Source: Kappaphycus alvarezii
Lineage: Eukaryota > Rhodophyta > Florideophyceae > Gigartinales > Solieriaceae
Direction: 5' to 3'
Length of the DNA stretch: 64,000 nt
Assembly: GCA_002205965.3 (NCBI GenBank)
Contig: NADL03000483.1
Coordinates: forward strand, 930,001 to 994,000
The notes beneath the pieces were generated by a model. That model ran no database searches. It saw only the letters and a list, made by a program, of their open reading frames with translations, and was not told the DNA's origin. Positions 14,824 to 58,758 of this stretch are shown here, one piece after another (the first letter of the stretch is position 1; the number at the start of each line of letters is the position of its first letter). Position numbers and translations under genes: made by a program.

Positions 14824-16236
14824 CTACGAAGAAGAATCGCCCCGATTCTTGTATTCGTATAGCAGATCTTGACAATTTTTCAGTTCATTTTCTGATAGCC
14901 ATGAGTTCTCGTGATCTGCATATCCTTTCCATTTAATGAGATATTTTGTTTTTCCGTATTGTTTCTTGTGACTGAGAATTGATTCGACTTCGTATTCTTT
15001 ATGTCCATCTTGAACCTGTATAGGTGGTGGCGGCGGAATTTGGCGATAGAATTCATCTTCAAAGTACGGCTTAAGGAGACTAGCATGGAAAGCATTGTGA
15101 ATTCCCCTGTCGATCATTGGCTGGGAAAGATTTAAACGGTACGTAACTCCGTTTATATCCTCAGATATTTGAAATGGACCACAAAACTTTGGGTTCAGTT
15201 TTCGAGATCCTGCACCATCTTCAAAAGCTAGGTTTTTTGTGGACAACCAGACTTTGTCACCAACTTTATAAGAAGAAGGTCTTCTACTTCTGTTGACATA
15301 CAAGGCAGTGGATTCATTTGATTTTTGATTTGTTCTTGGGCTTTTTTCAGTGATTCTTGCATTTTTTTTAGGAACTGTGCCGCAGCGGTTGTCTGCGGAG
15401 AGTATGTCCAAAGGGACAGTTCTAGGGTGGATTCCATAATTGAGGAAGAACGGAGAGAATGTTGTAGTGGCATTAATAGATGAGTTGTAAGCAACTTCGA
15501 AGTCTACCAAGTATTTGTCCCAATCTGACTTGTCGAAGCTAACAAAAGAACGAATCATTTCTTCGATCTTTCTGTTCATAATCTCAGATTGTCCATCTGT
15601 TTGTGGGTGATATGCTGAAGAAGGGGATATCTTGGTACCCAGAAGGTGGAACAGACTCTTCCAAAACTTGCTCATAAAAATAGCATCCCTATCACAAATG
15701 ATATTCGTTGGAATTCCGTGGTTTCTGTATACATGATCCTTGAACAACCTGGCAGTTGAAGGAGCATCTATTTTGGGCTTGGTTGGTATAATTCTGATCA
15801 TCTTTGATAATCTGTCAACGACAGTTAAGATGCCATTGTTTCCTTCCGTTGACCTTGGAAGGGGTGTAATAAAGTCCATCGTTATGTGAGTCCATTTGGT
15901 TTTCGGTGGTCAAGAGGTTTAAAAGACCTGCGGGTTTCTGATTTGATGGTTTGTCTCTTTGGCAGTGGCAAGAACGAACGTATCGAAGTACATCTGTACG
16001 AAGGTTTTTCCAGTAAAACTTCGGTGATATTCTATTGATTGTTTTTGAAATTCCCAAATGTCCAGTATTTGGAGTAGAATGGTAGTCATGTAATAGCTTG
16101 ACTTTAAATTTTCCTTCTGGTACGCAAATCTTTCCGTTCCTTAGTAAAAGCAACCCTTTCTTTTCGAAAGGTGCCTTTGGATCTTTGTATTGGGTTTTCA
16201 GGTTTTCATCTAGCCTGTAATCTTTGGCCAGATCTT
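14824..16236 (-). pseudogene. Element C integrase and chromodomain (frame-broken pol C-terminus)
   Basis: Continuation of pol after a frame break at about 16236. The zinc part reads [19 protein letters not shown] with the CHCQR Cys pair, near 16100-15960. A second break near 15905 leads into the core: [10 protein letters not shown] (first Asp), ICDRDAIFM (second Asp) and [13 protein letters not shown] (Glu), matching element B. Two compensating shifts lie between about 15400 and 15310. A C-terminal chromodomain ([27 protein letters not shown]) near 15000-14890 would target insertion to modified histones. It ends at 14824. Confidence 0.85.
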
Positions 16237-18369
16237 CTATTCAGAATCCGCAAAATAAGGTACGGATATATTGTTCGATTCTAGGTATGTCTTTGTTATC
16301 ACTTCCTTGAGTAGTTCTCTGTTTCGATGTTTAGGTGAGGGATAATTCTGAGGTTGTCTTGACAGGGCATCGGCAACGATGTTTGCTTTCCCGGAGATGG
16401 GTATAATTTTGAAATCAAAGTTCGCTAATCTTTCCAACCACCTAACCTGTCTTTGGGACAGATTGTCCTGGGTCTCGAGGTATCTTAAAGGGTAGTGATC
16501 AGAATGAACTGTGAAAAAGTTTCCGTGTAGGTATGCTCTCCACCATTTCAAGCACTCTACAATGGCCAAGAGCTCTCTCTCATGAGCGGCATAATTTTGC
16601 TCAGCATCATTCAAAGTCCTAGACGCAAAGGCAACTGGTCTTCTGGATTTTGGATCCCCCTGTTCCAACACAGCTCCAATTGCGTACTGAGAGGCATCTG
16701 TAGTGACATATATTGGAAGTTCAGAGTCAAAAGTTCGAAGGACTGGGGCACTGCATAACGATTTCTTCAAGGTCTGGAATGATTTGTCCTGAGTAGCTGT
16801 CCACAGAAATGAAACGTTCTTCGTCAGCTCTGTAAGAGGTTTAGCAACCAATGAGCATCCTCTTATGAATCTTCTGTAATAGTTGACGAGTCCTAAGAAT
16901 GACTGAAGTTGTTGCTTGTTCTTTGGTGAGGGCCATTCCATGACTGCCTTTATCTTGTTGGGATCCACAGCAATTCCCTCTTGACAGATTACATGTCCAA
17001 GATACTCGACTTCTTTAACACCGAAGACACATTTTGACAATTTTGCGAACAGATTCTCCTTCCTCAGAATCTCTAGTACTACATCAATGTGTTCTAAATG
17101 TTCTTTCCATGTCTTACTGAAGATGAGAATGTCATCTAAATAAACGATAACGAATACATCCAGGACATCTTTGAATATGTCGTTCATGAGATTCATAAAA
17201 GTTGCTGGTGCGTTGGTCAATCCAAAAGGTAGTACGAGAAATTCAAAATGTCCGTATCTGGTTCGAAACGCTGTGAGAGGGATTGAAGATTCCTCCAGTC
17301 TGATCTGATGGTAACCCATCCTCAGATCTATTTTCGAGAAGTACCTGGCTCCCTTAAGTCGATCAAAGATATCATCGATGCGCGGCAGGGGGTAGCTGTT
17401 TTTTACAGTAAGCCGATTAAGTGCTCTGTAATCCACACACATACGCAAACCGCTGTCCTTTTTCGTTACAAAGAGTATTGGCGCTCCCCAGGGGCTTTTG
17501 CTTGGTCTAATGAATTCACTCTCTAGTAGATCATCTAGTTGTTTACGAAGCTCCATCATTTCTTTTCCTGAAAGTCTGTAGAGACCCTTTTTCTGTGGCT
17601 TAGCATCTTTTTCCAATTCGATCTTGAAATCATACTTTCGCTTCGGAGGAAGGCCCTTCGGAAGTTTTTCCGGGAAAACGTCTGTATACTTTTTCAGTAC
17701 ACCTTGAATATCTTCTGGGTAAGAATCTGGAACATTTGGATTTGAGTCTAGTGGTCGAATTAGAACAGCATAAGTGCTACATTTTTTCTCCAAATCAGTA
17801 AGTACTGAGTTTGCAGAAACGAAAGGGTGCTTTGTCATTTCATTGGCAGTGACGGAGTACTTTTCACCCTTGTAGTTGAAAGAAACTTGATTGCTTGAAG
17901 AGTCGATAATTGCTCTATGGGCTCCACACCATTCCTTTCCTAGGATTGCATCATATCTCTTGAGGGGGCTCACGGCGAAGTACAGTGGTTCTGTGTAGTT
18001 CTTTATTTGGACGATTGCCGGACCGGCTGTTTCTTTCAACTTCTGGTTAGCACCGTTCGCCATTTCGGCAAGCTCTGCTGATTCTCTTGTTTTAATCTTA
18101 TGGTAATCGCAGAACAATTCACTGAGGAAATTGATCTCACCACCTGGGTCGATGAGAATTTTTGCTGGTCCATTGGAAATGACTCCTTTAACAATAAGAA
18201 GTCCTCTATGATTTCGTTGGAAAGTTGGGGTTGGTGTTCCCCTAAATGCTTCCTGGGATCTTATTGTTGAAACAATAAGATTTCTGTCATCCAGAACTGA
18301 TTGAGGACCTTCAGTCAGTTCCTTCGGGCTTTTGGGCAGTTTTTTGCAATGTGCCCTCTCTGTCTGCAT
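16237..18369 (-). CDS. Element C pol: protease, reverse transcriptase, RNase H
   Basis: A 710-codon open frame joined to gag by a -1 frame change at the CCCAAAA heptamer just upstream. Protease is seen as [15 protein letters not shown], with DPG where most retroviral-type proteases have DTG or DSG. The RT has [16 protein letters not shown] palm motifs ([17 protein letters not shown]) and the catalytic [11 protein letters not shown]. RNase H has [16 protein letters not shown] and [19 protein letters not shown] start of the integrase zinc region follows, then the frame ends at 16237 in a premature stop, while element B continues at the same place. Otherwise intact, consistent with recent activity. 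Confidence 0.9.
18325..18331 (-). promoter_or_regulatory. Predicted -1 ribosomal frameshift site of element C
   Basis: CCCAAAA in the gag phase C CCA AAA, inside the sequence AACTGCCCAAAAGCCCG after the gag zinc knuckle, with the gag TGA 15 bases beyond. Slipping back one base enters the pol frame. The identical site is at 54036-54042 in element B. Confidence 0.6.
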
Positions 18370-24424: not shown

Positions 24425-25603
24425 TCAATTTTTCCTGCTCTCTCGGACAGCCATGGGACGCCCACCCACGTACACGCCATCCAGCTGAGCAATTGCCTTC
24501 TGAAGATCCTCAGCTGATCGCAAATCGGCAAACGCAAAGCCCTTAGACTTCATATTCGCATCTGTGACCAGAGACAAGCGGATAAAGTCAACAGCTCCTC
24601 GGACAACTTTTTCCAGCTCCTCCTTCTGAAGTGTGAACGGCAAGTTTCCAATGAAGATAGTGTGAGTAGATTGACCGGGACGGTCACTGCGACCCCTCCC
24701 ACCCTCTCTAAAATCTCTGCGGTCGGTGCGTTCCCTCCTCTCACCATCCCTCCTCCTGTTCCTCCTCTCGGATCGAAGTCGAGACTGTTCTTCCATCAAA
24801 GCATCCTTCTTCTCCACAGGATACGGTTTCATTTCTTCATTTTCAGTGTCCAATACAGACAGCTTGTCCAATCTCTGAAACCATTCATTTCCACATACAG
24901 AGCAAGCAACTTTCCTTCCCCGTTGACCTATATCGTCAGGATTTATCTCAAAGGAAGCCTTACAGGCACCGCAAGTGGTGTAATAAGTAGCGTTGGGATC
25001 CGGAACAAAGTCGTCTTGCGTTGGTCCCCGTTCACCACGGCCATACGGGCGAAACCTGTCCTGGCGCTCCAAGCCTTCCTGACGTGTAGATTGAGAATAT
25101 CTGTCACGAGGAGGCCTATATCCATCGGTTCCATTTTTGGAAGGTTGAGGGCGAGCGGGGCGGTTCGGACGGGATGGGGCATACGCGACGGGAGTGTCGG
25201 GAGCGTTGATAGGGTCGGGACGACGAGGCGGTTGAATAGGGGCGGGAGGTCCGTTGAGAGGGGGTGCCTCATCTGTGGTGGCGGAAAAGCGGACACGAGG
25301 GGGGAGCGGAGGAGTTGACGACGGGGACAAAGTTGGGCGGGGAAGAGACGACGAGTGCGGAAGGGAGGGATGGGACCTGTGATGAAGGCCTCCATAGTAG
25401 GACGTTGGGGTGAGGAAGGGGGAATGATGGGATGGAGTTTGGTCGTGAAGCGGTGTGTTTGCATTAGCGTAGGTAGGACTTGAGCAGTGAGAATGAGTGT
25501 TGGGGGCGAAGAGGTGTAACGCGAAATTGAGACACTCCCGTTGGGTGCGCAGCGGCGGCTTTTCATGTGGCCGTGAGGTTTTGAGTGATCTCGTCGCAGT
25601 CAT
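24425..25603 (-). CDS. Zinc-ribbon (MJ0042-like) and RRM RNA-binding protein
   Basis: Intact 392-codon frame. Residues 1-200 are disordered, rich in Ser, Thr, Pro and His with few acidic residues, resembling an organelle transit region followed by a linker. About residue 208 starts a zinc ribbon of the bacterial MJ0042 kind: TTCGACKASFEINPDDIGQR, then VACSVCGNEWFQ, two CxxC pairs. A charged Arg/Glu/Asp region follows. The C-terminal RRM (about 310-392) has RNP2 IFIGNL and RNP1 KGFAFADL. Likely role: plastid RNA binding, in processing or translation; this is inference from the transit-like N-terminus and the bacterial-type ribbon. Divergent from tadA, and its start abuts a GTAC-rich repeat cluster that may be its promoter. 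A shadow frame on + covers much of it. Confidence 0.8.
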   Translation of the reverse strand: MTATRSLKTSRPHEKPPLRTQRECLNFALHLFAPNTHSHCSSPTYANANTPLHDQTPSHHSPFLTPTSYYGGLHHRSHPSLPHSSSLPRPTLSPSSTPPLPPRVRFSATTDEAPPLNGPPAPIQPPRRPDPINAPDTPVAYAPSRPNRPARPQPSKNGTDGYRPPRDRYSQSTRQEGLERQDRFRPYGRGERGPTQDDFVPDPNATYYTTCGACKASFEINPDDIGQRGRKVACSVCGNEWFQRLDKLSVLDTENEEMKPYPVEKKDALMEEQSRLRSERRNRRRDGERRERTDRRDFREGGRGRSDRPGQSTHTIFIGNLPFTLQKEELEKVVRGAVDFIRLSLVTDANMKSKGFAFADLRSAEDLQKAIAQLDGVYVGGRPMAVRESRKN

Positions 25604-26319: not shown

Positions 26320-26896
26320 TGCGACTCGCGTTCACATTTCCCTTCCGCTATCCCCACCCCGTCTCATCCCCAAACCCTCCCTCCGTTGTCCCTACACAAC
26401 CTGCAGCTCCTGCCCTCCGCCCAAAACCCCCGATGAATCCTTCATGCGTCTCGCCCTTTCCCAGGCCCGAAAAGCCTACGCCCTTAATGAAGTCCCAATC
26501 GGCGCCGTCCTAGTCTCTCCATCTGGACATCTCATATCCTCGGCCCACAATCTCGTCGAGTCCACCCACGATGTTACGGCCCATGCCGAGCTACTCTGTA
26601 TTCGACACGCAATGAAAACCCTTCAGAATTGGCGCCTGATCGGCACAACCCTGTATTCTACCCTCGAGCCATGTCCGATGTGTCTCAGCGCGCTTGCGTT
26701 GGCAAGAGTCCACCGCATAGTTTACGCCGCAAAGGACCTCAGGTTAGGTGCATGTGGTACATGGATTCATTTGCATGACATGGACCATCCATTTCACAAC
26801 ATTGAGCTTGTCACCGGTGGCGTTCTGGAGAACGAATCAGCCGCCCTCCTGCGCCAGTTTTTTCAAACAACGCCGGCAAGCTGCGAGAAATTCTAG
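26320..26896 (+). CDS. tadA: tRNA-specific adenosine deaminase, TadA type, probably plastid
   Basis: Converts adenosine 34 to inosine in the anticodon of tRNA-Arg(ACG), needed for reading CGN codons in bacteria and plastids. The catalytic domain from 26429 reads DESFMRLALSQARKAYALNE, VPIGAVLVS, the zinc and proton-transfer motif TAHAELLC (His, Glu) and PCPMCLSAL (zinc Cys pair). Length matches the family's single-domain core. The catalytic frame has no ATG before 26444, which cuts into the first helix. An ATG at 26320 opens a 36-codon Ser/Pro/Arg leader in another frame that looks like a transit peptide, and restoring one base in the CCCCC run near 26425 would join them. So either an assembly error, a tiny intron or a recent lesion. 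Convergent with the UBX gene, 140 bases apart. Confidence 0.85.
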
Positions 26897-44557: not shown

Positions 44558-44562
44558 GTATA
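44558..44562. repeat. Target-site duplication of element A, left
   Basis: GTATA immediately before the LTR; the same bases follow the other LTR at 58693-58697. Confidence 0.75.
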
Positions 44563-44817
44563 TGATCGGGACAATGTTGCATTCTGGATTGCTTTAATTA
44601 TTTTTATATTTTTTAAGTATAGTACAGTACAATACAGCACAATACTGTACTGTACGGGTTATATTTGTATTTTAGACTACAGTGCTGAAATTTATTTGTT
44701 TTCTAGGAACCGCCGACCGCCTTTTGACCACATCTATTTTTCGGCGCTTGCCTATAAATGTAGGCGAAGCGTCGGATGCGCGCGAGTAAACCGACAACAC
44801 AACGGCCGACACCAACA
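44563..44817 (+). repeat. 5' LTR of element A
   Basis: 255 bases, TGATCGGGACAATGTTGC ... CGACACCAACA. It contains a GTAC-rich patch and the motif GGCGAAGCGTCGGATGCGCG. Confidence 0.85.
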
Positions 44818-44917
44818 TTTTCTCTTGCGCAGGACTGAAAATCCAGGCGCCAGCGCGGCAGTGTTCGGCGGCACTAGCAATGTCCGCAAATTTTTCTTTT
44901 TCTATGAAAACGTCGTT

Positions 44918-45775
44918 ATGGCCTCTAGACCCAATCCGGAGAAAGCACTTACTCTCCTTAGACATCTAGACGGCCCGGCTTTCGATTTATACCACAGGAC
45001 ATTCGCCTCGAATGGCGAACTGGTAGATGAGGCAAAAGACTACTACACCGCCAAGCAAAAGTTCTTCGAGCATTTCGTCAAGGAAAAAGATCCCCAAAAC
45101 GTTATCCGACAAGCTCTAGAAGTTGGAATAGACATTGAAGACATTTCTGGCTCCCTGAAGGAGATGGATCGCCTTTACGAGAAAGCTGGATTCGACAACG
45201 TTACAAGATTTGGACTTTTACGCACCGCCGCCTGTCGCTACGAGGAGCTACAGCAATTTTTAACTTTCCGTGAGCCTCGAGATTACTCAAGCATCAAACA
45301 GGCTCTAAGGGACTTTCACTTAAATCGCCTCACGTTTATTGACCCTTCAAGCCGAGATTCAGAAGTCCCACTGACCAAGTTGTTAGTTAGTCCAGACTCC
45401 AGTTCCAGAAACACCGTGAACAAGGTGGACGCTATAGATGAGGATCTTTCCAGACTAACATTGTTTTTAAAAAATAAGAAGGGAGATAACGGTGCAGGAC
45501 CTTCGCTGGCACAACAGAGGGGCAACAAATTTCGTCCGTGCTCTGTTTGCAACGAGCTAGTTCACAACTACATGAACTGCGAGAAGAACCCCCACCGCAA
45601 TACGCGTTGCTCTTATTGCGGAAAGACCGGTCATTCGGTAGCCACTTGTTGGTCTGCCGCTAAGGATAGGTCTTCGGGGGCTCACAATAAAAAAGAGAAG
45701 GAGGAAGATGGAAAAACAGGCCAGTTTAATGTAGTATGTGAAAGCGATTCAGACACCTATTATGCTATCCAATAA
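44918..45775 (+). CDS. Element A gag
   Basis: Retrotransposon capsid/nucleocapsid protein of 285 residues from the ATG 44918 (MASRPNPEKALTLLRHLDGP). The open frame reaches further up into the leader, but without motif. A capsid-like helical region contains HLDGPAFDLYHRTFASNGEL and LYEKAGFDNVTRFGLL. The C-terminal zinc knuckle is CSYCGKTGHSVATC (near 45608), preceded by a second Cys/His group, CSVCNELVHNYMNC. It ends at 45775 with an acidic stretch. The frame is intact over its whole length, unlike the downstream pol. Confidence 0.75.
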   Translation: MASRPNPEKALTLLRHLDGPAFDLYHRTFASNGELVDEAKDYYTAKQKFFEHFVKEKDPQNVIRQALEVGIDIEDISGSLKEMDRLYEKAGFDNVTRFGLLRTAACRYEELQQFLTFREPRDYSSIKQALRDFHLNRLTFIDPSSRDSEVPLTKLLVSPDSSSRNTVNKVDAIDEDLSRLTLFLKNKKGDNGAGPSLAQQRGNKFRPCSVCNELVHNYMNCEKNPHRNTRCSYCGKTGHSVATCWSAAKDRSSGAHNKKEKEEDGKTGQFNVVCESDSDTYYAIQ

Positions 45776-45868
45776 GTCGTTAATGCAGCGACAAGAACAG
45801 CCGATGGCGAGGCTTTAACGAAATAGCCTCGCCAAGGAAACTACGAAGGGATTCCGATATCACGTCTC

Positions 45869-46898
45869 GTGAATGACCCGCGGCAAGCCCTAGTTATTCC
45901 CTCATTCCCTGCAGTGGAAGAATTCCGTACTTTAAACCGCAGGAGGAAGCCGGAGAAGAACAACTGCGCGAAAAAGAACTCGAACAAGATCCAAGAGTAC
46001 GTTGGCAAATACGACATCGTGTCGGAACTTGCAAATGCCAACTGTGGTCTGACGTTTGGCCAGCTCCTTTGTGGGGATGCAGATGGAGCTACCAAGATAA
46101 TGCAGATAATGCGCTGTTTGCTCGGGAAGCGGTCAGTACCCCGCGTCGCAGTCGTGACTAACCCGGAATCTCGCCTATTACGAGTCGTACAACGTAAGGT
46201 TTATGGCACTGACGTTTGGGCATTGCTAGATTCTGGGGCAGTACCCAACGTTATGTCTGCCGTCTTGTCTCAACGCTTATATCTATCGCCGAATTTTACG
46301 TCAAGGAAGATAACAGTGGCTAAGAAATGGAGAAAGTTCATCTTGCGTCGGCTCGTTGCTGAATTTTCCTACTACTTTCGGTGAACAAGGGGTCAAGCTG
46401 GACTACCTTGTTTTCGAGAAGTCTCCATTTGACATTATTATTGGACTTCCAGCACTCGAATCTATGCGCGCGAGCCTAGATTTGGGAGCACAGAGTGTGC
46501 GCCTGTACACAGGGTCCGAAGAAGTCGTGCTACCGCTCGAGCCCGACGCGAAAGCGACCGAAAAGAGGCTCGTCGAAGGCGAAGATATTGGTACTCCCAG
46601 CGAAGATTTCACATCCGATTCGAACGCTGGGCCGGAGTCATCGGATTCATCCGAAGAAGAACTTGTTTTTTTCATCCGCGGAGACGTTATGGAACAAGAA
46701 GATGAGAAGCATCCCGGAGGAGGAAGCACCACCGATGAAGAAGAAGAAGAAGTTCTTGACGCTCTGAGGGCTCGTCTAGCACACCTTCGAGAAGTAGACC
46801 AAGCGCGAATAAACGATTCCCTCCGAAGCAATGGTATAGTCTCCTGGAAGATTGAAGAGCTCCGTCCCGCCACAGTTCCAGTGGAACACACGTTTTAG
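45869..46898 (+). pseudogene. Element A protease and linker
   Basis: An aspartic protease is readable: DVWALLDSGAVPNVMSAVLS (catalytic Asp at 46229), then across a frame change near 46370 FDIIIGLPALESM, the conserved flap/ILG region. A long acidic linker (SDSSEEELVFFIRGDV, TTDEEEEEVLDALRARLAHL) follows. Starts and ends in different frames, so at least one shift is present. Confidence 0.7.
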
Positions 46899-46982
46899 CT
46901 AAAGGACTAAAATCCAGTTTAACACAGAGCTCGTCGCCTGGCTCCGCGTCACAACGATGCGGTCCGAAAAGAAGTTTATAGG

Positions 46983-49460
46983 ATGCTGGAAGCAGGAATT
47001 AATACCCTAGCATCTTCAGCATGGTCCTTTACTGTAGTGATCGCCTCCAAGAAGGACGTAAAGCCCAGATTCTGTGTGGACTACCGCAGTTTGAACCGTA
47101 AGATGAAGGCCGATCGTTGGCCTCTGCCCAAGATAGAAGAAATATTCGATGACCTAAATGGTAGTTCGGTATTCACTACCCTCGATTTGTTCGCAGGATA
47201 CTGGCAGGTTTGCATGAGCGAAGATTGTAAGGAGATGGCTATCTTTATTTGCAGTTACTGGGCTTTCAAGTTTGAGGTTATGCCCTTTGGTCTCATGAAT
47301 GCTCCGTAAACTTTTCAGCGCATGATGGACTATGTTTTACGGGACATCTCCTTTGCTCGCGCTTATTTGGACGATTTTGTCGTCTTTTCTAACTCCATCG
47401 AGGAGCACATTGATCTCTTAAATAGAATTTTCGACGCTATCGGAAAGGCGGGCCTGAAGCTCAAGATCGATAAGTGTGACTTTGCGAAACCAGCTTTTAA
47501 GTTACTGGGACACAAAGTTCCCAAAACGGAGTTCATGTCGACGAATAAAAGATTAAGGCCATCAAGGAATCACCGGTTCCGAAGGATACGACTGAGTTGC
47601 GCGATTTTCTTGGCCTTGCCGGTTATTGCTGCCGTTTTATTCGTGGCTTCGCAGAGAGTTCAGCCGCATTATATGCCTCTACGTCTGGCAATAAGAAATT
47701 CAACTGGATAGAGGAAATGATGGAGGTATTCGAAACCTTGAAAGAGAAGCTCACCACTCCACCGCTTCTGGCATTTCCAGACTTCGATTCCCCATTTATA
47801 GCGGAAACTGATGCTTCAAGCGTCCCAGTAGGGGCAGTCCTCGCCCAGAAAAAGGAAGACGGGAAGATGCACCCCGTGCAGTATGCTAGCCGCACTATGA
47901 ATTCGGTTGAGAAGAACTATTCCGCATCTGAGAAGGAAGATCTAGCAGAAATTTTCGCTTTGCGGAAGTTTCGGGTATACCTGTTTTCTACAAAGCCATT
48001 CAGGTTGGTTACCGATCATCAAGCCCTCCGCTACGCTTTTAAAAAGAACGACATCCATGGAAGGTTGGCGTGGTGGATGTATTTTCTTGCGGAGTACGAG
48101 TTCGAAGTAGAGTATAGGCCTGGCGCAAATAACGGCGCCGCGGACTACCTGTCGCGGGCCGTCCCTACTGGTTCCTCACCACCCACAGGGGTCGAGGAAG
48201 GAGATTTGGTCGCAACAGTTGGTTCAATCTCTGTCGCGGAGGGTCGTTCATTGGAATCCAAGCTTATCGAGGTCGCTAGTCATCTGCGGAAGTTTAAGAT
48301 CGAAGAAGAAGACGAAACCAAGAGGCGTGCAATCAAACGTATGGCGAAGCGTTTCATGGTTTGGGAGGGGAAACTACTACGACGTACGAATATGGGACTC
48401 AAGACTGTCCCTTTCCTTGAGGGTAGCACGTCGATGCTCCGCAGCTTCCACGACGATATTGAACACTGGGACACTGAAACAACGAAACAATTCATCTCTG
48501 ACCGCTACTGGTGGCCGCATATGCATAGGGACATCCAAAATTACGTTAAAAGTTGTGAGGGATGTCAGAAGACCAAACAGATCCCTTACCGTAAAAGCCT
48601 GAAATTACCGCTCTCAAACATATTCGAGACTTATTCGATCGATTTCGCCGGCCCGCTCCCGAAGTCGAAGGGCGGGAAGAACTTTTTGCTCATTGCGGTA
48701 GAACATTTAACTGGTTGGCCAACCGCATTGGCCACAGAAGATTCGTCGGCCAGGACTGCTACTCAGTTTATAGAGAAGGAAATTTTGTTCCACTTTGGTC
48801 CCCAAAGACCATTGTATCCGACAATGCTGGATGCTTCACCGCTGCTTCTCTCATTTACCTTTGGGGAAACACGGAATCTCTTGAAGCACTGGTCTGGCCT
48901 ACGCCCCATGTCGAATAGTAGGGCCCAGAGGATGGTACGCACCATCAAGACTACCCTCAAGAAAATGGTTCTAGGCCAGGGAATGGATTAGGGGAGAGCT
49001 TGCCGAACATTTGTATGGATACAGTCGTCGTCTTCTCGCCTCCGAAGCATCCCCGTTCGAGTTTATGTACGGAGTTGTGCCGCGCATACAATCATCAGGT
49101 GCGATAGCTCTAATTTCTAACACCGCGGAGAGCCATCTTCGATTGGAGTTGTTAGCAAACGTGGAAATCCGGCACGAAGAAGGGATGAAAAAGAGCGTGT
49201 ATTGAGAAACAAGGCATTCGCGGAACCTGTAGGGTTCGACGTGGGCGACTGAGTCCTTGTTGCGCATGGAGCGGCCTTGCCGAGAATAGTTAATTGGCCA
49301 GCTTTCACATCAGGATACTTCGGGCCGTGCCAGATATGGAAAGGGGATCACCCGAGGTATTGGCTGACCTTAAATGGTAGACCTCACTCCAGAAGTGCTA
49401 TCCACGCAAGGCGTATGGTTTCTTTTGTGGTCCGCCCGAGAAGCCTGCAAAATTAGTGGC
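46983..49460 (+). pseudogene. Element A reverse transcriptase, RNase H and integrase
   Basis: RT: WSFTVVIASKKDVKPRFCVD, LDLFAGYWQVCMSED, VMPFGLMNAP then an in-frame TAA at 47308, and ARAYLDDFVVFS with the catalytic Asp pair at 47364-47375. RNase H: FIAETDASSVPVGAVLAQ, NSVEKNYSASEKE and YRPGANNGAADYLSR (about 48120). Integrase: zinc region HDDIEHWDTETTKQFISDRY with CEGCQKTKQ, core IDFAGPLPKSKGGKNFLLIA, a weak second Asp block (TIVSDNAGCF in the next frame) and SEASPFEFMYGVVPR near 49040. A C-terminal part runs to about 49460 with no chromodomain seen. Frame changes near 47560 and 48810 plus stops inactivate it. Confidence 0.8.
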
Positions 49461-49694
49461 CTCCATTCTCGCCCATCGTAGTGGTAGGAAATGTGGCCTT
49501 TAGCAGAACTGTTCTCCTGTTCGTTTCAACAATATATCTTTTGATCGTTTGAGTAATACATTTGTTTCGTTGGGTTTAAACGCATCCCTACACAAAAAAA
49601 GAAAATTGAAAGAAAAGAAAAGAAAACTAGAAGAAACGAATTACCAAAGAAGAAAATTGAATGATGGAACCCGCTGAATCACCGTAGAACCCTA
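49461..49694. other. Spacer between integrase end and antisense gene
   Basis: AT-rich, with an A/G-rich run near 49590-49650. No gene seen. Confidence 0.4.
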
Positions 49695-50952
49695 CTGTTT
49701 GGAGCTACTAGTTTCCCCCTTCACCTTCGACTGCGCGCCGCGACTTTTACGGATTTCCGATTTGGTCCTGCCACGGCGGCGGGGACGCTTCGATGCCTGT
49801 CCACTTCTAAGTGAAAGCCTTCGAACTTCCAGTATCGTGATTAAGGTCGAACTCCCGCCCACGAGCTCAACGAAAGACTTCTCAGAGAGTTCAAGAATGA
49901 ACGTTTCACCAGGGTCGAGGAGGTGACCCGTCTAAATATTCATTGCAACGCAGTGCCTGACGCCGTTGGAATCTTCTATAGAGACTATATAGACGGCGGG
50001 GCCCAAGGCCAACGCAGATGTAACGGAAGGGTACATCGGCAGGCTTTTTTCGAGCACAATCTCCCTAGGAGGTAGGTGCTTTTGGGCGTCCCGTAGATAT
50101 CGAATACGGCCCCCTCTCAAGTGATTCGGGTGGCATCGAGCCAGATTTGACCGAAAGTAGTCAAACCAACGCTTCGCGTCGCCCTACTTCCCTAATTCTC
50201 GCAACTTTTTGCTATGGAGGCGCCAATACACCCTTCCGTCTGGTCAATGAAAGGGGTATTAGGGAGCGCGAAAGAGCGGTACTTGCTTTCATCAGAGCGG
50301 GGTTCTCGAGAGCGAGTAAAAGAAGGAAGAAGCTTCCGGCCAGGGTGTTCCTGGCACCATTTGTGTATTTCAAAGATCGAGTCCAAACGGTTTCCGAACC
50401 CAGCGTGAATAGGCCCCCTTCGTCGATATCATGCATGAAGAAGCTGCCTCCACCCTCAAAGGAAAGGGTGTAAAGAAGGATAGTATAAAATTCCCTGGTG
50501 GCCTCATCTTCTCCCTAGTATACCGCTTCCTTCTCGTCCCATACTATAGACTTGACGATACAGTCTTTTTCCGACACCTTCTTATACGTACGGGAGTCAT
50601 AAATGGATTATGGCAAGCCCAATTGGCAGGCGACCTCCTTTGTAAGCTCCATGATAGGCAAGGCGGAAACTGCGTCCATTGTATGATTTCCAAATAAGAA
50701 TGGAAAGTCGCAAGGGCGAACCTTTGTTATGCTCGGGGACCCGGAGGTGAAAAAAACGAGTTCAGGCTCGTTCGACGACATGTACTTGATAACAATACCC
50801 GACCTCTCAAGAAGGGCCCTTGTCTGCGGAGGTATCTTCGACTGGGCTTCAGCGTCCGCTTCCCTTGACATCCTCGCGGCCTTGGTAGCGATTTTCTTTC
50901 GAGGCGCTTTTCCTCCCGTACTCAACCTAGCCAACTGCTTCGTCCGCGCCAT
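49695..50952 (-). pseudogene. Histone H3 tail mimic fused to a possible protease-like protein, antisense in element A
   Basis: ATG at 50952 in a good start context (GTAATGG). Residues 2-20 are ARTKQLARLSTGGKAPRKK and the next are IATKAARMS: 23 of the first 28 positions after Met equal the histone H3 tail. Differences in H3 numbering are T6L, K9L, Q19K, L20I and K27M; K4, S10, K14, K18, K23 and S28 are kept. No histone fold follows. The frame runs to a TAA at 50608, and coding-like sequence continues on - with further stops (about 50518, 49932) and frame changes to a Lys/Arg-rich end (RPRRRGRTKSEIRKS) and stop at 49695. The late part has EGCIGASIAKSC, DSNGVRHCVAMN and LLDPGE, a Cys...His...Asp order like papain-fold proteases (low certainty). 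It lies between integrase and the element B insertion, opposite to element A transcription. Confidence 0.7.
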
Positions 50953-51102
50953 TACGATGTTTTTGCACAACTAAGGATCAGCTTCCACTAGTATACAGGC
51001 AGTCTGAAACTGCACCTCCGTACTTCTCAGCTCCCACGTCACCGTCATTGTGCCACCGAAATGTTGAGGAGAATAAGATGGCGAGGAGAGGAACAAGCTC
51101 AC
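50953..51102 (-). other. Upstream region of the H3-mimic gene, within element A
   Basis: No recognised gene; a short frame on - ends in a stop just before the mimic's start. A promoter, if any, would be here or beyond the inserted element B, which now separates the gene from its original upstream DNA. Confidence 0.35.
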
Positions 51103-51107
51103 AAGGC
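51103..51107. repeat. Target-site duplication of element B, left
   Basis: AAGGC, repeated at 58142-58146 just after the right LTR. Confidence 0.9.
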
Positions 51108-51608
51108 TGTTGTATTTCACTCCACAGACCTTACAACTGCATATACTGTACTGTAGATTCAAACCACTGGTAACCTTGCAGCCAGGGCTACTAGGCACTT
51201 TGCTGTCATTACACTTTCCTTACAGTTCTGAACACAGCGTTTGACCCCATTGGTACACTTGGAATAGTTACGGGCGAGTTGCACACTGGGATATTACATC
51301 ATTGCTTTACCAATCAAAAGTCGCCTTGCTATCCCATGCCACCTGGACCAATGTACTTCTTACATCTTGTCAGAGTATGTCACTCTTGCCGACTACAATC
51401 TGAAAGCGCTGCTTACGATACCGTCAGGGCTGTTTTACGGGAATACCTTTGAATTCGCTACTGTTAGACTGCATTTTCTTTTAGTTTGTAGCTATCTTCA
51501 GTTCTATATAAACCCTGGTTTGGAGCGGCCGGCTTTACCCAGCCAGCCTCAACAAAGTTTCAACCACAGTTCTACCTTGATCTGCTCGTGTGCGCTTAAC
51601 ACCCCACA
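51108..51608 (+). repeat. 5' LTR of element B
   Basis: TGTTGTATTTCACTCC ... AACACCCCACA. Differs from 57638-58141 by a few small indels (for example AAAAAG for AAAG). Confidence 0.95.
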
Positions 51609-51611
51609 TCG

Positions 51612-51624
51612 TGGTAGCATCGCA
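51612..51624 (+). promoter_or_regulatory. Primer-binding site of element B
   Basis: TGGTAGCATCGCA, three bases after the LTR; same 13 bases as element C. Confidence 0.6.
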
Positions 51625-51761
51625 AGTAAGTTGTGCCTTATTGTGCGTTTTTCCAATCCGCCAGTTGGGATAAAATCTCTACTAGATTTATCTCAGCTGC
51701 CCGATTGCAAACAGAGACTAACATTGTGTTTTTCACTCTGACCCTTACGCGGTAACCCACA

Positions 51762-52489
51762 GTGTCGTACAACAGGAAGTCAAAGGGCCGCCCTCCATCG
51801 CCGTCAGAGTACGACTCAGAAGACCTCGCCGACTTTCGTTCCCCGCCCACCTCGCCAATACTACCGATTGGCGAGGAAGAAGATCCCAAGACCCCGCTTC
51901 CTCCGTCGACTCCGAGAACCCCCATCGCCTTACTCAGCCCCGAGGAGCCCAAGACACCGACGCCGACTTGCCAAGATCTTGTCTTACCCCGAGCACTGTC
52001 AGTGGCATCTCCCTTTGGTACGGTCGAAGAGCCTCGCACCCCTTTTCGATCGTTTGCCCTACCCCCATCGACCGGCCTTCGATCCTTACCCCCGGTCCCG
52101 AGGAAGCCGTCGCGTCCGACCGTCTCGAACCCGTCAAGGCCACCGAAAGTTCAAGGGCTCCTCCGAGAAGGCTTCAAGTACTGCCGGACGCCGCCTCTGT
52201 GTCGATCCAAAGGGTGGTAAACCATCGAATCCGCAAGGCTAGGCCCTCGAAAAGGCCGCGGATGAACAAGAACCCGAAGTCCTCTCCGTTCCATTGTCGT
52301 CATTGTCAAGTGACCTGCTCCGGCCGCGTTCAGTACTTCGAGCACCTCCGTTCCCGTCGTCACATCCGCCGTACAAGCAAGAAGGAGTACAAGTGCAAGG
52401 ACTGCAATATTGAGTTGTTCAGTGAACAAGACCTTGTCCGCCATCAGAACGGGGCTCAGCATCGACTCACAGTCAGAGGTCACAATTAG
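51762..52489 (+). pseudogene. Element B accessory ORF with two U1-type zinc fingers (one frame break)
   Basis: Counterpart of 19612-19040. It opens at GTG 51762, nine bases after an in-frame TAA, with no ATG. The N-terminus is disordered and Pro-rich (RPPSPSEYDSEDLADF, PKTPLPPSTPRTPIALL, TVEEPRTPFRSFALPP). A single-base loss near 52160 moves the frame, after which VLPDAASVSIQRVVNHRIRK is conserved with element C. Two fingers follow with exact C-X2-C-X12-H-X5-H spacing: Cys at 52295 and 52304, His at 52343 and 52361; then Cys at 52394 and 52403, His at 52442 and 52460. Ends at 52489. This finger type occurs in splicing and RNA-binding proteins. An AG just before each GTG could be a splice acceptor, so the true start may be in an upstream exon. 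Confidence 0.75.
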
Positions 52490-52624
52490 TATCTTTGTTT
52501 TCCATTAAAATTGCTTGTTTTTGAGTAAGAAAAAGGAAAAAAAGCAATAAGTTCATTCTCAATCGACTTCGTGTGTGTGTTGTGTTCACCCTTCCGCTGT
52601 GATTGCAAGCTTTCCTCTGCTGCC

Positions 52625-52763
52625 CCCAGATCCTTGTAGTAGGACTTACAATTGTAAGTCCGTATCGCCATCAGGACCTAGACAGGACAACCACCGCAAA
52701 GCAAGAATCGGAAGAAGGGCTACTATAACGCACCCGACGTGACTGACGTCAACCCTTACGTCA
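52625..52763 (-). repeat. Conserved body downstream of the tRNA-like head (copy in B)
   Basis: On - it reads TTGACGTAAGGGTTGACGTC, TTATAGTAGCCCTTCTTCC, then GGCGATACGGACTTAC, matching 18788-18920 of element C. Confidence 0.65.
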
Positions 52764-52772
52764 AAGAAGGAA

Positions 52773-52861
52773 CTTTTTGTAAGTGCTCCTGGCGGATTTG
52801 AACCCGCGACCACCTCATCAGGAGCTACTTACACTTAACCACTAGGTCACCAAGACCGGAA
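52773..52861 (-). ncRNA. tRNA-like module inside element B, antisense to the element
   Basis: A-box-like TGACCTAGTGG (52849-52839) and B-box-like GGTTCAAATCC (52804-52794), each one base off consensus and spaced as in tRNAs. A 13-pair stem with one bulge, GTAAGTAGCTCCTG with CAGGAGCACTTAC (52832-52819 and 52791-52779), encloses the B box. A canonical cloverleaf does not form. It occupies the same place and strand as the module in element C, but the head sequence is different while the following body is the same. Confidence 0.5.
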
Positions 52862-53117
52862 TTTGAAGGTGCAAGAAGAACCAATCAGGTTATAAATCAC
52901 AATTTTTTCAAAAATCATTGCTGGCATTTTGAAAAACCAGCTTACTGGAGGCTTCGCATCGTGGGTAGTTTGCCCAGGAACCATCTAGGAGACTCTCTGT
53001 TACTCCAGGTGTTACAGAAATCGTGTACACGTATCACCACGTGTACACGTGTAAGGTCGGAAACTTCTCTCAGATACCAGGCCAAATACTGTTACTGGCT
53101 TTGTGAACCTAATCGCT

Positions 53118-54057
53118 ATGGATCAGCCGCAAGTCACCCTAGAGTCGCTTACGCAAATGGTGCTTCAGTTGCAGCAGAATCTTGAGCACGCCAATAACCA
53201 AATTGCGGCACACAGATCAGAGCTTTCTATTGCAGCGCAAAAGGTATCCTCCTTAGAATCTGAACTCGTAAACGCCCAAAACCAGGCCAGCTCGTCAAAT
53301 AATGCCCTAGTGGACAGTCAGGCTGGCCCAAAGAAAAACAAGCCAACTACATTCACTGGGAAAGGATCAATTGCTAGCTGGTGCGTTCAAATGGACAACT
53401 ACCTCGGGAAATGATGGAAATGGACCCCTACACATAGCACTCAGCTACTTGGCTGGAAATGCCCATGAATGGTGGATGGTCCACTTCAAGACAGAAGAAG
53501 GGAAAGGAATAAATTCCTGGCAGTCCCTGAAGGTTGCTTTGATCCAGCGTTTTGAAACGCTGAACAAAGAGAAGATCGCTCGAGACAAACTCGCCCGCTG
53601 GAAACAAGTCAAAGATGTTCCTACCTTCAACGAAGACTTCAACAAAATTATACTCGACATCCCCGATATTGGAGTTAAAGACCAGATAGATCGTTACTCT
53701 CGCGGTTTGAAGCCCTATATCTGGAAGGCGTTGTGCACCAAAGAATACGTCAATCTCTCCGATCTAATGAAGGATGCTGAGCGAGTAGAGTCGGCCTATC
53801 GGCGTTCTGGACCCGGTAACCTACCAAAGTCTTCTGGAGGAAGGAATGGAAATGGAAGCTCTTTTGCTGGAACCAGCAGTCCTGTACCAATGGAAATTGG
53901 GAACGTAGAAGTGATACCGGGGCTAAAAAGAAACACTCCCAATTTACAGAAGCTTGACAAAGAAGAACGTGAAAGATGTATGCGCGAAGGTCTCTGTCTC
54001 AGGTGCAGACAGAAAGGGCACATGGCCAAGAACTGCCCAAAAGCCCGGAGGAACTGA
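53118..54057 (+). pseudogene. Element B gag
   Basis: ATG 53118 (MDQPQVTLESLTQMVLQLQQ). N-terminal coiled coil, then TFTGKGSIASWCVQMDNYLG. A short loss with frame change near 53410, then the capsid region ALSYLAGNAHEWWMVHFKTE, DKLARWKQVKDVPTFNEDF and DRYSRGLKPYIWKAL. The zinc knuckle is CLRCRQKGHMAKNC, followed by the frameshift heptamer and the TGA at 54057. It would form the particle shell and package the RNA if the one lesion is ignored. Confidence 0.85.
54036..54042 (+). promoter_or_regulatory. Predicted -1 ribosomal frameshift site
   Basis: CCCAAAA read in gag as TGC CCA AAA, fitting X XXY YYZ. The -1 frame continues as PKSPEELIEGPQSVP into pol. The gag stop lies 15 bases later. Same heptamer, phase and distance as in element C. 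Confidence 0.65.
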
Positions 54058-54760
54058 TTGAAGGTCCCCAGTCAGTTCCAGTCATTGAAGAACCATTAGA
54101 CAACCTTGTGTTAGACAAAGAAACTCGGGAGTTATCATTGAATCAAACAAAAAGGTCCATTGTGTCCACCATCAGGTCGAATGCAACGTTCATTGAAACA
54201 TTCTCCCCTGCATTCGAGAGAAATCACAAGGGCCTTCTCATTGTCAAGGGTACAATTGCTGGTGGCCAGCAAAAATCCTCATAGACCCTGGTGGTGAGAT
54301 CAACTTCTTGAGTGAATCGTTTTGCAAGAAACATCAAATAAAGACCCGAGATTCCAGAGAGCTTGCTGAAATGGCCAACGGTGCGGACCAGATACTTCAA
54401 GAATTGGTAAATGCTGTCATTGTACATATAACTGCCTATACTGAACCTCTGTACTTTGCAGTAAGCCCATTGAAGCGTTATGATGCAATTCTTGGGAAAG
54501 AATGGTGCGCCTCGCATGGGGCAAAAATCAATTGTTTTAATAATGAGGTGAAAATCGAACATAAGGGAAATTCATTCATATTTATTGCTGATGATGCCGT
54601 AGTGAGTCCTTTTGTATCTTTCAATACCATAGTTAGTGATTTCGATGAGAAAAAAGAGTTATTTGCAGTTTTACTTAGACCGTTACATCCTAGTGAAACA
54701 AGAGCACCAGTATACCCTCGAGACATACAGAAGGTTTGGAAACATTTGCTGACGTGTTTC
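54043..54760 (+). pseudogene. Element B pol, protease part (two single-base losses)
   Basis: Protease from NHKGLLIVKGTIAGG through a one-base loss near 54265 to [17 protein letters not shown], then [19 protein letters not shown], the usual flap and ILG-like end. The active site is DPG rather than DTG or DSG, as in element C. A second one-base loss near 54735 joins YPRDIQKV to the RT frame. Confidence 0.8.
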
Positions 54761-57627
54761 CAGAGAAACTCCCAAGAGGTTTGCCACCGAGAAGGAAACA
54801 AGACTTTGAAATAGAATTAAAGGAAGGAGCAGAACCACAAAAGAAAGGTCTCTATAGACTTTCTGACAAAGAAATGTCAGAACTCCGAAAACAGTTGGAC
54901 GAACTACTAGAAGCTGAGTTTATAAGACCTAGTAAGAGCCCCTGGGGAGCTCCTATCCTATTCGTGAGCAAGAAGGATGATAGTCTACGGATGTGTGTCG
55001 ATTACAGAGCCTTAAACCGGCTTACTGTAAAAAACAGCTATCCCTTACCACGAATTGACGACATTTTCGACCAGCTTAAAGGAGCAAAGTTCTTCAGCAA
55101 AATTGATCTTAGATCTGGGTATCACCAGATTAGACTACACGAAGATTCGATTCCATTTACCGCCTTCAGAACACGATACGGGCACTTTGAATTTCTTGTT
55201 CTGCCGTTTGGACTCACTAATGCGCCAGCAACTTTCATGAACCTAATGAATGACATTTTCAAGGATCAGCTCGACTTATTTGTGATCGTCTATCTGGATG
55301 ATATCCTAATCTACAGTAAGACATGGAAGGATCACTTGGATCACATTCGAACTGTACTCGAAATCCTCAGAAAAGAAAAATTGTTTGGCAAATTATCTAA
55401 ATGTGTCTTCGGAGTTACAGAAGTCGAGTACCTAGGACACATCATTTCTCAAAGTGGTATTTCTGTTGATCCAAACAAGATAAGTGCAGTCATGGAATGG
55501 CCGATACCAAAGAATAAGCAACAAGTACAGTCTTTTCTTGGTTTTGTCAATTATTACCGGAGATTCATAAAAGGCTGTTCAATTCTTGCAAAACCCCTCA
55601 CAGAATTGACGAAAAACGTGAATTTCCAATGGAGCCACACTCAAGATGATTCCTTCAAAGTACTCAAGCAAACACTTTGTAGCGCACCGGTTCTCAGAAA
55701 TTTCGACGCCACACTGCCTATCTACGTAACCACAGATGCATCACAGTATGCAATTGGTGCAGTGCTGGAACAGGAAGAATTAGGTTCTAAAAGGCCGGTC
55801 GCGTTTGCATCCAGGACTCTTAATGATGCGGAACAAAACTATGCGGCCCATGAAAGGGAACTTTTGGCCATTGTAGATTCCCTCAAGTGGTGGAGATCAT
55901 ACCTTTATGGTAATTCATTCACCATTCACTCGGACCACTATCCCCTAAGATACCTAGAAACCCAAGAAAACTTGTCCCCGAGACAAGTGAGATGGCTGGA
56001 AAGATTAGTTAATTTCGACTTCAAGATAATACCCATCTCAGGAAAATCAAATGTAGTGGCGGACGCACTATCGAGGCAACCACAAGATGTGCCGTCACCT
56101 TATCAACGAAACAATTCATTACTTCAAGAAGTTATTACCAAGACATCCTCAGAATCCAATAACATTTCGACCATATCATTCACAAACACTGAGTTAGTGG
56201 GGTTGGTAGAAGATTATGGTAGGGATGAGAACCTCAGAACCCATTACCAAGATCCTAGAGCTCCCTTTGAGCGTCGAGGGATGCTTCTACTTAAAAACAA
56301 GAAGATCTGTGTACCAGAAGGAAATTTCAGAGTCAAGCTCCTGCATGACTATCATTGCACTCCCAACACGGGACACCTAGGAATAAGCAAAACTATCAAC
56401 AGAATATCACCAAAGTTTTATTGGAAAAATTTAAGATCGGATGTAATCCGATACATACGTTCCTGCCAATGCCAGAGAACCAAAGCAACCAATCAGAAAC
56501 CCGCAGGTCTTTTACAACCACTAGAACCACCGAAAACCAAATGGACCCACATAACCATGGATTTCATCACACCTCTCCCAAAGTCGAGAAATGGAAACAA
56601 CGGCGTGTTAACAGTCGTTGACAGACTTTCTAAGATGATCAGAATAATACCAACGAAACCAAACACAGATGCTCCTGAAACAGCACTGCTGTTCAAGAAT
56701 CACGTATACCGAAATCATGGATTACCAGAGAATATCATATGTGACCGAGATCCCATCTTCATGAGCAAGTTTTGGACAAAACTTTTTGCTCTACTAGGAA
56801 CAAAGATATCCCCCTCCTCTGCATACCACCCACAAACTGATGGACAATCGGAGATAATGAACAGGAAAATAGAGGAAATGATCCGTGCTTTCGTTAGCTT
56901 CGACAAATCAGATTGGGATAATTTCCTGGTAGACTTTGAAGTTGCTTACAACTCCTCTGTGAATGTCACCACAACTTTCTCACCATTTTTCCTCAATTAC
57001 GGAATTCAACCACGAACAGTACCTTTAGATGTTTTAGCGTCAGACAATCCAGCGGCAGCAGGTTTTCTAAAACATATGCAAGAAGCATTAAGGAAAGCCC
57101 AGAATCACATCCGAAAATCCAATGAGTCCACCGCAAAATATGTAAACAAGAAAAGAAGGCCGTCTACTTTCAAGATTGGTGATAAGGTTTGGCTATCAAC
57201 AAAGAACTTATCACTTGAAGATGCGGCTGGATCACGCAAACTGAACCCAAAGTATTGTGGTCCCTTTGAAATAACAGAGGACATTAACGGTGTAACTTAC
57301 CGTCTGCAGTTATCTCAACCGATGATCGACAGAGGAATACATAATGCGTTCCACGCTAGCCTCTTGAAACCGTTCTTTGAAGATGAATTCAACCGACAAA
57401 TTCCACCACCGCCACCACTCCAATTTCAAGATGGACATGAGGAATACGAAGTTGAGTCTATACTCGCTCATAAAAAAGAACGTGGAAAAAATAAATTCCT
57501 TGTCAAATGGAAAGGGTACGGAGATCATGAGAACTCGTGGCTTCCCGAATCATACCTCAAGAATTCACAAGAACTTTTGAATAAGTACAAGCAGAACCTC
57601 AAGAATCGGGGCGATTCTTCTCTGTAA
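54736..57627 (+). CDS. Element B pol: RT, RNase H, integrase, chromodomain
   Basis: A 963-codon intact frame. [32 protein letters not shown] and YLDD at residues 186-189. RNase [15 protein letters not shown] with Asp 334. Integrase: zinc region [13 protein letters not shown] (about 537) with CQCQ (about 577); catalytic Asp 609 (MDFITPLPK), Asp 670 (CDRDPIF) and Glu 706 ([13 protein letters not shown]), with 35 residues between the last two. A GPY/F-like part ([19 protein letters not shown]) follows. C-terminal chromodomain, residues 903-950: [12 protein letters not shown] and [15 protein letters not shown], with the aromatic residues that read methylated histone tails. It copies the RNA and directs insertion, probably to heterochromatin. 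All catalytic residues are present. Confidence 0.95.
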
Positions 57628-57637
57628 GGGGGAGTGA

Positions 57638-58141
57638 TGTTGTATTTCACTCCACAGACCTTACAACTGCATATACTGTACTGTAGATTCAAACCACTGG
57701 TAACCTTGCAGCCAGGGCTACTAGGCACTTTGCTGTCATTACACTTTCCTTACAGTTCTGAACACAGCGTTTGACCCCATTGGTACACTTGGAATAGTTA
57801 CGGGCGAGTTGCACACTGGGATATTACATCATTGCTTTACCAATCAAAAGTCGCCTTGCTATCCCATGCCACCTGGACCAATGTACTTCTTACATCTTGT
57901 CAGAGTATGTCACTCTTGCCGACTACAAATCTGAAAGCGCTGCTTACGATACCGTCAGGGCTGTTTTACGGGAATACCTTTGAATTCGCTACTGTTAGAC
58001 TGCATTTTCTTTTAGTTTGTAGCTATCTTCAGTTCTATATAAACCCTGGTTTGGAGCGGCCGGCTTTACCCAGCCAGCCTCAACAAAAAGTTTCAACCAC
58101 AGTTCTACCTTGATCTGCTCGTGTGCGCTTAACACCCCACA
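57638..58141 (+). repeat. 3' LTR of element B
   Basis: 504 bases, preceded by the polypurine tract AAGGGGGAGTGA (57626-57637). Confidence 0.95.
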
Positions 58142-58446
58142 AAGGCGCTCGAGAAAAGAAGGCGCACCAGCTGAACAGGCGTACAAGTCCAGAGGGTACA
58201 CGAAAAACGGGGAGCAAAAGCCTACAGAGCGAACTAGCAACAAGGCGCGCAAGCCGAGGAGGCGCACAAGGCGGGGAAGTGCACAAGCAGAGGAGGCGTA
58301 CATGCCGGGAACAAGGCCGGGGAAGCAGGAGGAGTGACGTCGAAGCTCGGGTTGGAACGGTTGGAAGGACTGGAAGGACTGGTAATTTGAAATACTGAAA
58401 CGTACAGTACAGTATGCGGCCCGTGGTCCGTTTTGGAGGCGGGTGG
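58142..58446 (+). other. Element A 3' internal tail, purine-rich, with AAGGC duplication
   Basis: Starts with the right AAGGC (58142-58146). It is rich in degenerate GGCGCACAAG/GAGGCGTAC units and ends in a polypurine tract before the LTR. The + and - open frames here are low-complexity and not convincing. Confidence 0.55.
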
Positions 58447-58692
58447 TGATAGGGACAAATGTTGCATTCTGAATTGTTTTAACTGTTTTTATATTTTTTT
58501 AAGTACAGTACAATACAATCCTGTACTGCACGAGTTATACTTGTATTTTAGACTACATTGTTGAAATTTATTTGTTTTCTAGGAACCGCCGACCGCCTTT
58601 TGGCCACATGCATTTTCGGCACTTGCCTATGTATGTAGGCGAAGCGTCGGATGCGCGCGAGTAAACCGACAACACAACGACCGACACCAACA
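58447..58692 (+). repeat. 3' LTR of element A
   Basis: 246 bases, TGATAGGGACAAATGTTGC ... ACACCAACA, followed by GTATA. Confidence 0.85.
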
Positions 58693-58758
58693 GTATATAA
58701 ATTACAGAACTTATTCTCGGTAAAGTAACCGTGGGCATTTAGTGGCGTTGCTTTTCAA

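Follow-up and report, generated by a model that had tools for sequence, protein, structure and literature searches.

Why does a retrotransposon of the red alga Kappaphycus alvarezii carry, antisense to its own genes, a frame that opens with the N-terminal tail of histone H3? The frame lies in the window analyzed here (the whole stretch of 64,000 nucleotides, in whose coordinates all positions are given), and an earlier note on this DNA had read it as an element-borne gene for a decoy that would blunt H3K9/H3K27 methylation, or for a protein that docks on chromatin readers and writers. We asked what the frame is, whether it has relatives, and what its altered tail might do.

The frame and its host element

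The 114-residue frame at 50952-50608 (- strand) begins MARTKQLARLSTGGKAPRKKIATKAARMSREADAEAQSK. Aligned with H3 residues 1-28 it is identical at 23 of 28 positions, as the earlier note had counted, with the differences T6L, K9L, Q19K, L20I and K27M. Residues 1-47 match H3 in PDB sequences at E 2.3e-8 (phmmer), which excludes a likeness by chance. Both K9 and K27 are lost, as had been noted; the added remark that each loss needs one base change is correct for M27 (ATG, one change) but not for L9 (TTG, two changes from AAG). The frame matched no Pfam family at E 10, hence no histone fold was detected after the tail, in agreement with the note.

The frame is, however, only the beginning of the gene. 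Its homology to longer proteins identifies it as the cut-short front of a larger gene, now decayed, with these parts:

50608..50952, - strand: open frame of 114 aa (ORF translation), the truncated front of the longer gene
50866..50952, - strand: H3-tail mimic, initiator Met plus residues 1-28, ARTKQLARLSTGGKAPRKKIATKAARMS (phmmer E 2.3e-8; 23/28)
49692..50952, - strand: entire decayed gene in three colinear frames (stops, translations, tblastn of relatives, tail-removed profile)
50204..50422, - strand: middle part of the gene including the conserved Cys (..EGCIGASI..; tblastn with P0115 210-284)
49776..50072, - strand: C-terminal conserved part with the His and Asp motif (RHCVAMN..LLDPGE; tblastn with P0125 457-532, E 0.002, and P0147 285-360, E 0.12; profile E 0.0028)

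The stop that ends the 114-residue frame (50610-50608) sits within homology to P0115, a Chondrus crispus protein, and beyond it the relatives can still be aligned with the - strand as far as about 49692, across stops and two frame changes. There are five internal stops, at 50610, 50517, 50194, 50119 and 49934, before the end stop at 49694-49692; with these and the two frame changes, the copy in the window is a dead one. Upstream of the ATG, homology to the relatives P0002 and P0005 reaches about 51015 and crosses an in-frame stop in the window. A decayed H3 gene was also considered, as the 114 residues resembled degraded H3 helices by eye, and was rejected: the body of the longer relatives differs, and it is to these that the window aligns.

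The earlier note had placed the frame antisense inside a gypsy-like element, and LTRs and TSDs now bound that element (element A, 44563-58692), whose pol and 3' LTR have the H3-tail gene between them in antisense orientation. A second element (element B) lies in the same interval:

44563..44817, + strand: 5' LTR of element A (TG..CA), 88% match to 58447-58692
58447..58692, + strand: 3' LTR of element A, 88% match to 44563-44817; begins TG, ends CA
44558..44562 and 58693..58697, no strand: TSD of element A, GTATA, at both LTR flanks
44818..49460, + strand: gag-pol of element A, Ty3/gypsy type, frames broken; right end (~49460) set by reading
51108..58141, + strand: element B, a younger Ty3/gypsy chromodomain element inside A (Pfam, LTRs, TSD)
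51108-51608 and 57638-58141, + strand: LTRs of element B, 99.4% identical
51103-51107 and 58142-58146, no strand: TSD of element B, AAGGC, at the flanks of its LTRs

Pfam matches in element A comprised RT_RNaseH, Integrase_H2C2 and RVT_1, with Ty3_capsid below the cut-off (E 0.028), and no chromodomain was matched at the end of its pol. Element B separates the H3-tail gene from the 3' LTR of its host element and, judged by LTR identity (99.4% versus 88%), is a recent insertion within an older element.

Elsewhere in the window, an element at 14824-18369 (-) looks similar to element B at 51108-58141 (+); both are of Ty3/gypsy type with C-terminal chromodomains, unlike element A. Two likely host genes were also seen, one for an RRM protein with a zinc ribbon (24425-25603, -) and one for a deaminase (26444-26896, +; PF14437, PF00383), presumably of the TadA type. 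A 17-bp tandem repeat of 3.8 copies (58243-58307) was found in the interval from the H3-tail gene to the 3' LTR of element A; according to the available part of a study of Retand elements, about half of those studied have tandem repeats in the same region (PMC11963269).

Relatives of the gene and their body

The first database search, made with the frame, covered candidates of about 63-200 aa only and gave 113 matches among 124 candidates; the core histone domain PF00125 was precomputed on 100 of the 113. Four close relatives, P0002-P0005, came from Logan assemblies in this search. In one of them, P0004, the tail is joined to a stretch that matches the window 1.1 kb further down the - strand, a junction that may reflect a deletion or splicing. 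Because of this downstream match, a 416-aa read-through of the - strand, with stops written as X, was used as the query of a second search (28 matches among 5315 candidates). It recovered P0115 from Chondrus crispus (487 aa, E 8.1e-14); P0124 (E 9.4e-5) and P0125 (E 6.7e-3), from metagenomes, also came up, both matched mainly through their tails. A profile search, in which scoring was confined to the 7993 candidates with the most shared words, gave 18 matches and added P0143 (487 aa) and P0144 (490 aa) from Chondrus, P0145 (490 aa) and P0146 (492 aa), and the partial sequences P0147-P0150.

Full-length homologues of 487-492 aa are therefore at hand from Chondrus crispus (three) and from other assemblies (two), and in the longer relatives (~490-540 aa) the H3 tail leads into a body that is not a histone and whose C-terminal part is conserved. 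A short Chondrus sequence, P0086, corresponds to the front of P0115 at 97% identity. Cluster member counts of 4 for P0115, 1 for P0143 and 10 for P0144, in which duplicate records are possible, hint at several copies in Chondrus. No full-length member of the window clade was found in the read-through or profile searches, all five window-clade copies found being short, and scans of viral contigs and genome contigs returned no relatives.

That the homology extends beyond the tail was seen in several comparisons. Using tblastn without hand framing, P0115 1-200 aligned to 50952-50455 and 210-284 to 50422-50204 (joint E 3.8e-18), with weaker matches of P0125 457-532 to 49991-49776 (E 0.002) and of P0147 285-360 to 50072-49875 (E 0.12). 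A profile of eight Chondrus-like proteins from which the tail had been removed, tested on 205 sequences, matched three frames of the window in gene order (E 3.8e-7, 0.0071 and 0.0028) and also P0125 (E 0.0039), whereas none of 200 shuffled versions of P0124 and P0125 did better than E 0.89. P0124 did not match this profile (E 4.8) and is linked to the family through P0125, with which its C-terminal 72 residues, including the His and Asp, are 40% identical. A profile-profile comparison of P0125 and P0124 with the Chondrus-like set aligned 82 C-terminal columns at a probability of only 43%.

In a Pfam scan of the window frame, the window composite, P0086, P0002, P0115, P0143-P0146, P0124 and P0125, PF00125 was absent, and the remaining family members have no precomputed Pfam domain. 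A tail joined to a normal histone fold, as the earlier note expected of an H3 pseudogene inserted by chance, was thus not found in the homologues scanned. Nothing in the body scored above the cut-off in the composite or in these proteins, P0125 having sub-cut-off matches to Myosin_N (E 0.078) and Nop14 (E 5.9). A Cys, a His and an Asp (C276, H392 and D407 of P0115) are invariant in a four-row alignment; in P0145 a Gln replaces the His, and which Cys of P0125 corresponds to C276 is uncertain. The motifs around them look like those of a papain-type peptidase, and we regard a cysteine protease as a lead for the body. Among the 60 of 136 PDB matches listed for the family profile there was no peptidase, all being H3 or H3 chimaeras matched by the tail. 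Both AlphaFold models were poor (mean pLDDT 33.4 and 39.5), and Foldseek with a low-pLDDT model gave 22 matches at E <= 10 and none at E <= 0.001. A chromodomain-like reading of Chondrus residues 70-125 was prompted only by a poor model and was dropped.

Tail residues and what the tail may do

Conservation of the tail was assessed over the 14 family rows that have one (tail-less P0147, P0149 and P0150 were left out). Residues T3, S10, G12, K14 and R26 are identical in all 14. As the tail of P0086 equals that of P0115 it was dropped, leaving 13 distinct tails, in which lysine is kept at position 4 in 12, at 14 in all 13, at 18 in six and at 23 in nine, compared with none at position 9 and one at 27. 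Homologues without lysine at 9 and 27, for which the earlier note had called, do exist, both being absent from 12 of the 13 tails; the part that did not hold is position 27 of P0146, the sole K27 keeper, in which the register was set by hand after a 3-residue insertion was removed. Fisher's test of positions 9 and 27 against the other four lysines gave p 4e-10 (13 tails, about five lineages), a value that overstates the contrast because the rows are related.

What replaces the lysines differs between groups. Residue 9 is L in the window clade and P0124, A in the Chondrus-like members, and R in P0146 and P0125, and it is constant per group (L in 5/5 window-clade rows and A in 5/5 Chondrus-like rows, P0086 left out). 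At residue 27 the family shows M, I, V, R or N and in one member K, and the window clade runs M, I, I, V, I; M occurs in the window, I in P0002, P0003, P0005 and P0124, and neither in the Chondrus rows. The Chondrus-like members combine A9 with R27 (V27 in P0148), P0125 has R9 with N27, and P0124 has L9 with I27.

As a control we used the other 143 proteins fetched, 140 of which have a tail by the script's rule. With H3-fold motifs, K9 was kept in 115/129 and K27 in 96/129; without them, K9 was kept in 9/11 and K27 in 5/11, figures that depend on a crude motif split, an ungapped register and a list biased towards query-like tails. Since K9 is kept in most controls, its loss is not general among H3-tailed proteins. 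Two of the tails without an H3-fold motif differ at these sites: P0154 has K9Q and K27R, and P0041 has K27M with K9 kept. P0156 (JGI metagenome, 430 aa), apparently outside the family, has the H3 tail MARTKQTARSATGGKVPRKQL with K9S, and its body has two DTG motifs and a weak match to Asp_protease_2 (E 0.0052, below the cut-off); a retroelement may here have adopted an H3 tail a second time, independently.

The reading we favor, tentatively and as somewhat short of probable, is that the family has maintained an H3 mimic, closed to methylation at position 9 and only rarely open to it at 27, that is fused to a body with protease-like motifs and docks on readers of the H3 tail while evading silencing marks. 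Removal of the initiator Met would expose an H3 N-terminus, A1-R2-T3-K4...S10-T11-G-G-K14. Host proteins that read or modify the H3 tail would bind it, and the body would be brought to chromatin or these factors would be competed for. The tag would escape K9 and K27 marking, because in the tails seen position 9 is never Lys and position 27 almost never; it could not be converted to the H3K9me form, and rarely to the H3K27me form, that recruits silencers. HP1-type silencers would then not be recruited, nor would Polycomb through K27 in all but one tail. At the docking site the body, which may be a cysteine protease, would do its work, and the element would thereby have a tag of its own, blind to silencing, that aids it in host chromatin. 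Common to the tails are nearly intact residues 1-8 and 10-14, and position 9 could also be unconstrained in a peptide that needs just these residues. Transposable elements of the red alga Cyanidioschyzon merolae are reported to carry H3K27me3, so that there may be something to escape, and a review describes PRC2 function in other red algae as mostly unknown (PMC8788455). Such a mimic would also offer a signature by which anti-silencing proteins could be sought elsewhere, namely non-histone proteins that begin with an H3 tail lacking K9 and K27.

The SET-inhibiting decoy of the earlier note did not stand as put forward, the family using L, A or R at position 9 and M, I, V, R, N or K at 27. As a substrate trap, L9 and M27 or I27 would occupy the SET pockets of the H3K9 and H3K27 methyltransferases and inhibit them, and silencing would drop; we consider this rather unlikely. 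K27I inhibits PRC2, and we know of no report of A or R as inhibitory residues. The L9 of all five window-clade rows, with M, I, I, V and I at 27, and the L9 and I27 of P0124 fit a trap, as does the finding of complexes between K9M and K27M peptides and their respective SET enzymes (PMC6562757, in the available text of which K27I is mentioned as a leukaemia mutation only). However, the A9/R27 tails of the Chondrus-like members (V27 in P0148) argue against inhibition as a general role; R9/N27 in P0125 and K27 in P0146 also speak against it, residue 9 is Leu and not Met, and a soluble decoy would have to be abundant. Inhibition of SET enzymes could fit only the members with L9 and M27 or I27.

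The gene could also be foreign to element A, a separate mobile unit or fragment that landed there, which would be compatible with any of the mechanisms. The linkage to a transposon is seen in the Kappaphycus window only. We regard a foreign origin as unlikely: the gene occupies the site typical of antisense ORFs in Ty3/gypsy elements, between the pol end (~49460) and the 3' LTR, and the match to P0002 and P0005 that reaches past the ATG, upstream to about 51015, is a further point against a separate unit.

Quite unlikely, in our estimate, is a neutral remnant, that is, a gene fused by chance to the 5' end of an H3 gene and picked up by the element, with a functionless tail that persists. The shortness of the five window-clade copies is in its favor, though the first search was limited to about 63-200 aa, and so is the similar conservation of tail and body among closer members. 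P0146 and the five Chondrus-like members are 46-57% identical in the tail and 43-50% in the body, and P0144 and P0145 are 75% and 80% identical, respectively; by these identities the tail is no better kept than the body among closer members. Against a remnant stand the full-length members in Chondrus and two other assemblies and the constancy of T3, S10, G12, K14 and R26. Pairs that include the window composite, P0124 or P0125 are 50-79% identical in the tail and 16-26% in the body, a difference partly built into the P0124 and P0125 pairs because both were found through the tail; the window and P0115, a pair with less ascertainment bias although the body of the window copy is decaying, agree at 22/28 tail residues and at 25% of the body.

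That the attached protease-like domain has the tail as its substrate or pseudosubstrate, and would cut H3-like tails or free the protein's own, appears very unlikely: the invariant Cys, His and Asp and the 40% identity of P0124 and P0125 over 72 C-terminal residues favor it, but there was no Pfam peptidase match and no peptidase among the 60 of 136 PDB matches listed, the models were poor and the fold search uninformative, and P0145 has Gln for His.

A composite version of these ideas strikes us as distinctly doubtful: an anti-silencing device of a probably red-algal retroelement family, with an H3 N-terminus that never has K9 and almost never K27, whose L9/M27-I27 versions would jam the H3K9 and H3K27 methyltransferases and whose attached protease would free the tail or clip host H3. 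If the docking mimic that we favor works, nature would have tried out in this family, repeatedly and in different versions, which H3 lysines elements must lose to stay active, and the family would offer a direct test of H3K9 and H3K27 control of transposons in red algae.

Comparison with known systems

We found no description of an H3-tail protein in a retroelement in the available text of the open literature searched. Among known H3-tail mimics, a short H3-like sequence engages chromatin factors in influenza NS1 and in SNAG domains. The present case differs from these in that 28 N-terminal residues are involved, in a gene of a retroelement and with the two silencing lysines replaced, and in being known from sequence alone.

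In its position, the gene resembles the ORFs, antisense to gag-pol, that characterize Retand elements between pol and the 3' LTR and also occur in Grande and RIRE2 (PMC11963269). The antisense ORFs of Retand encode TRP28, Smc and a few other domains, whereas the H3-tail gene has no Pfam domain; TRP28 (PF04195) was absent at E 10 from the composite, P0086 and P0002, and the available Retand text mentions neither a histone nor a protease. Rotifer LTR elements bear varied extra ORFs (PMC5408684, as far as its available text goes). Orchid Ty3/gypsy elements have taken up an AlkB-type m6A RNA demethylase, proposed to counter host surveillance (PMC9289625, available part). An extra ORF proposed to act against the host's surveillance is the likeness to our case; in the orchid elements, however, it is a whole enzyme domain with RNA activity shown, and no histone mimic.

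The oncohistones H3K9M, K27M and K27I have a non-lysine residue at the same two sites, and M27 and I27 recur in the window clade. The family described here differs from them in having no histone fold and in extending the replacements to L9, A9, R9, V27, R27 and N27.
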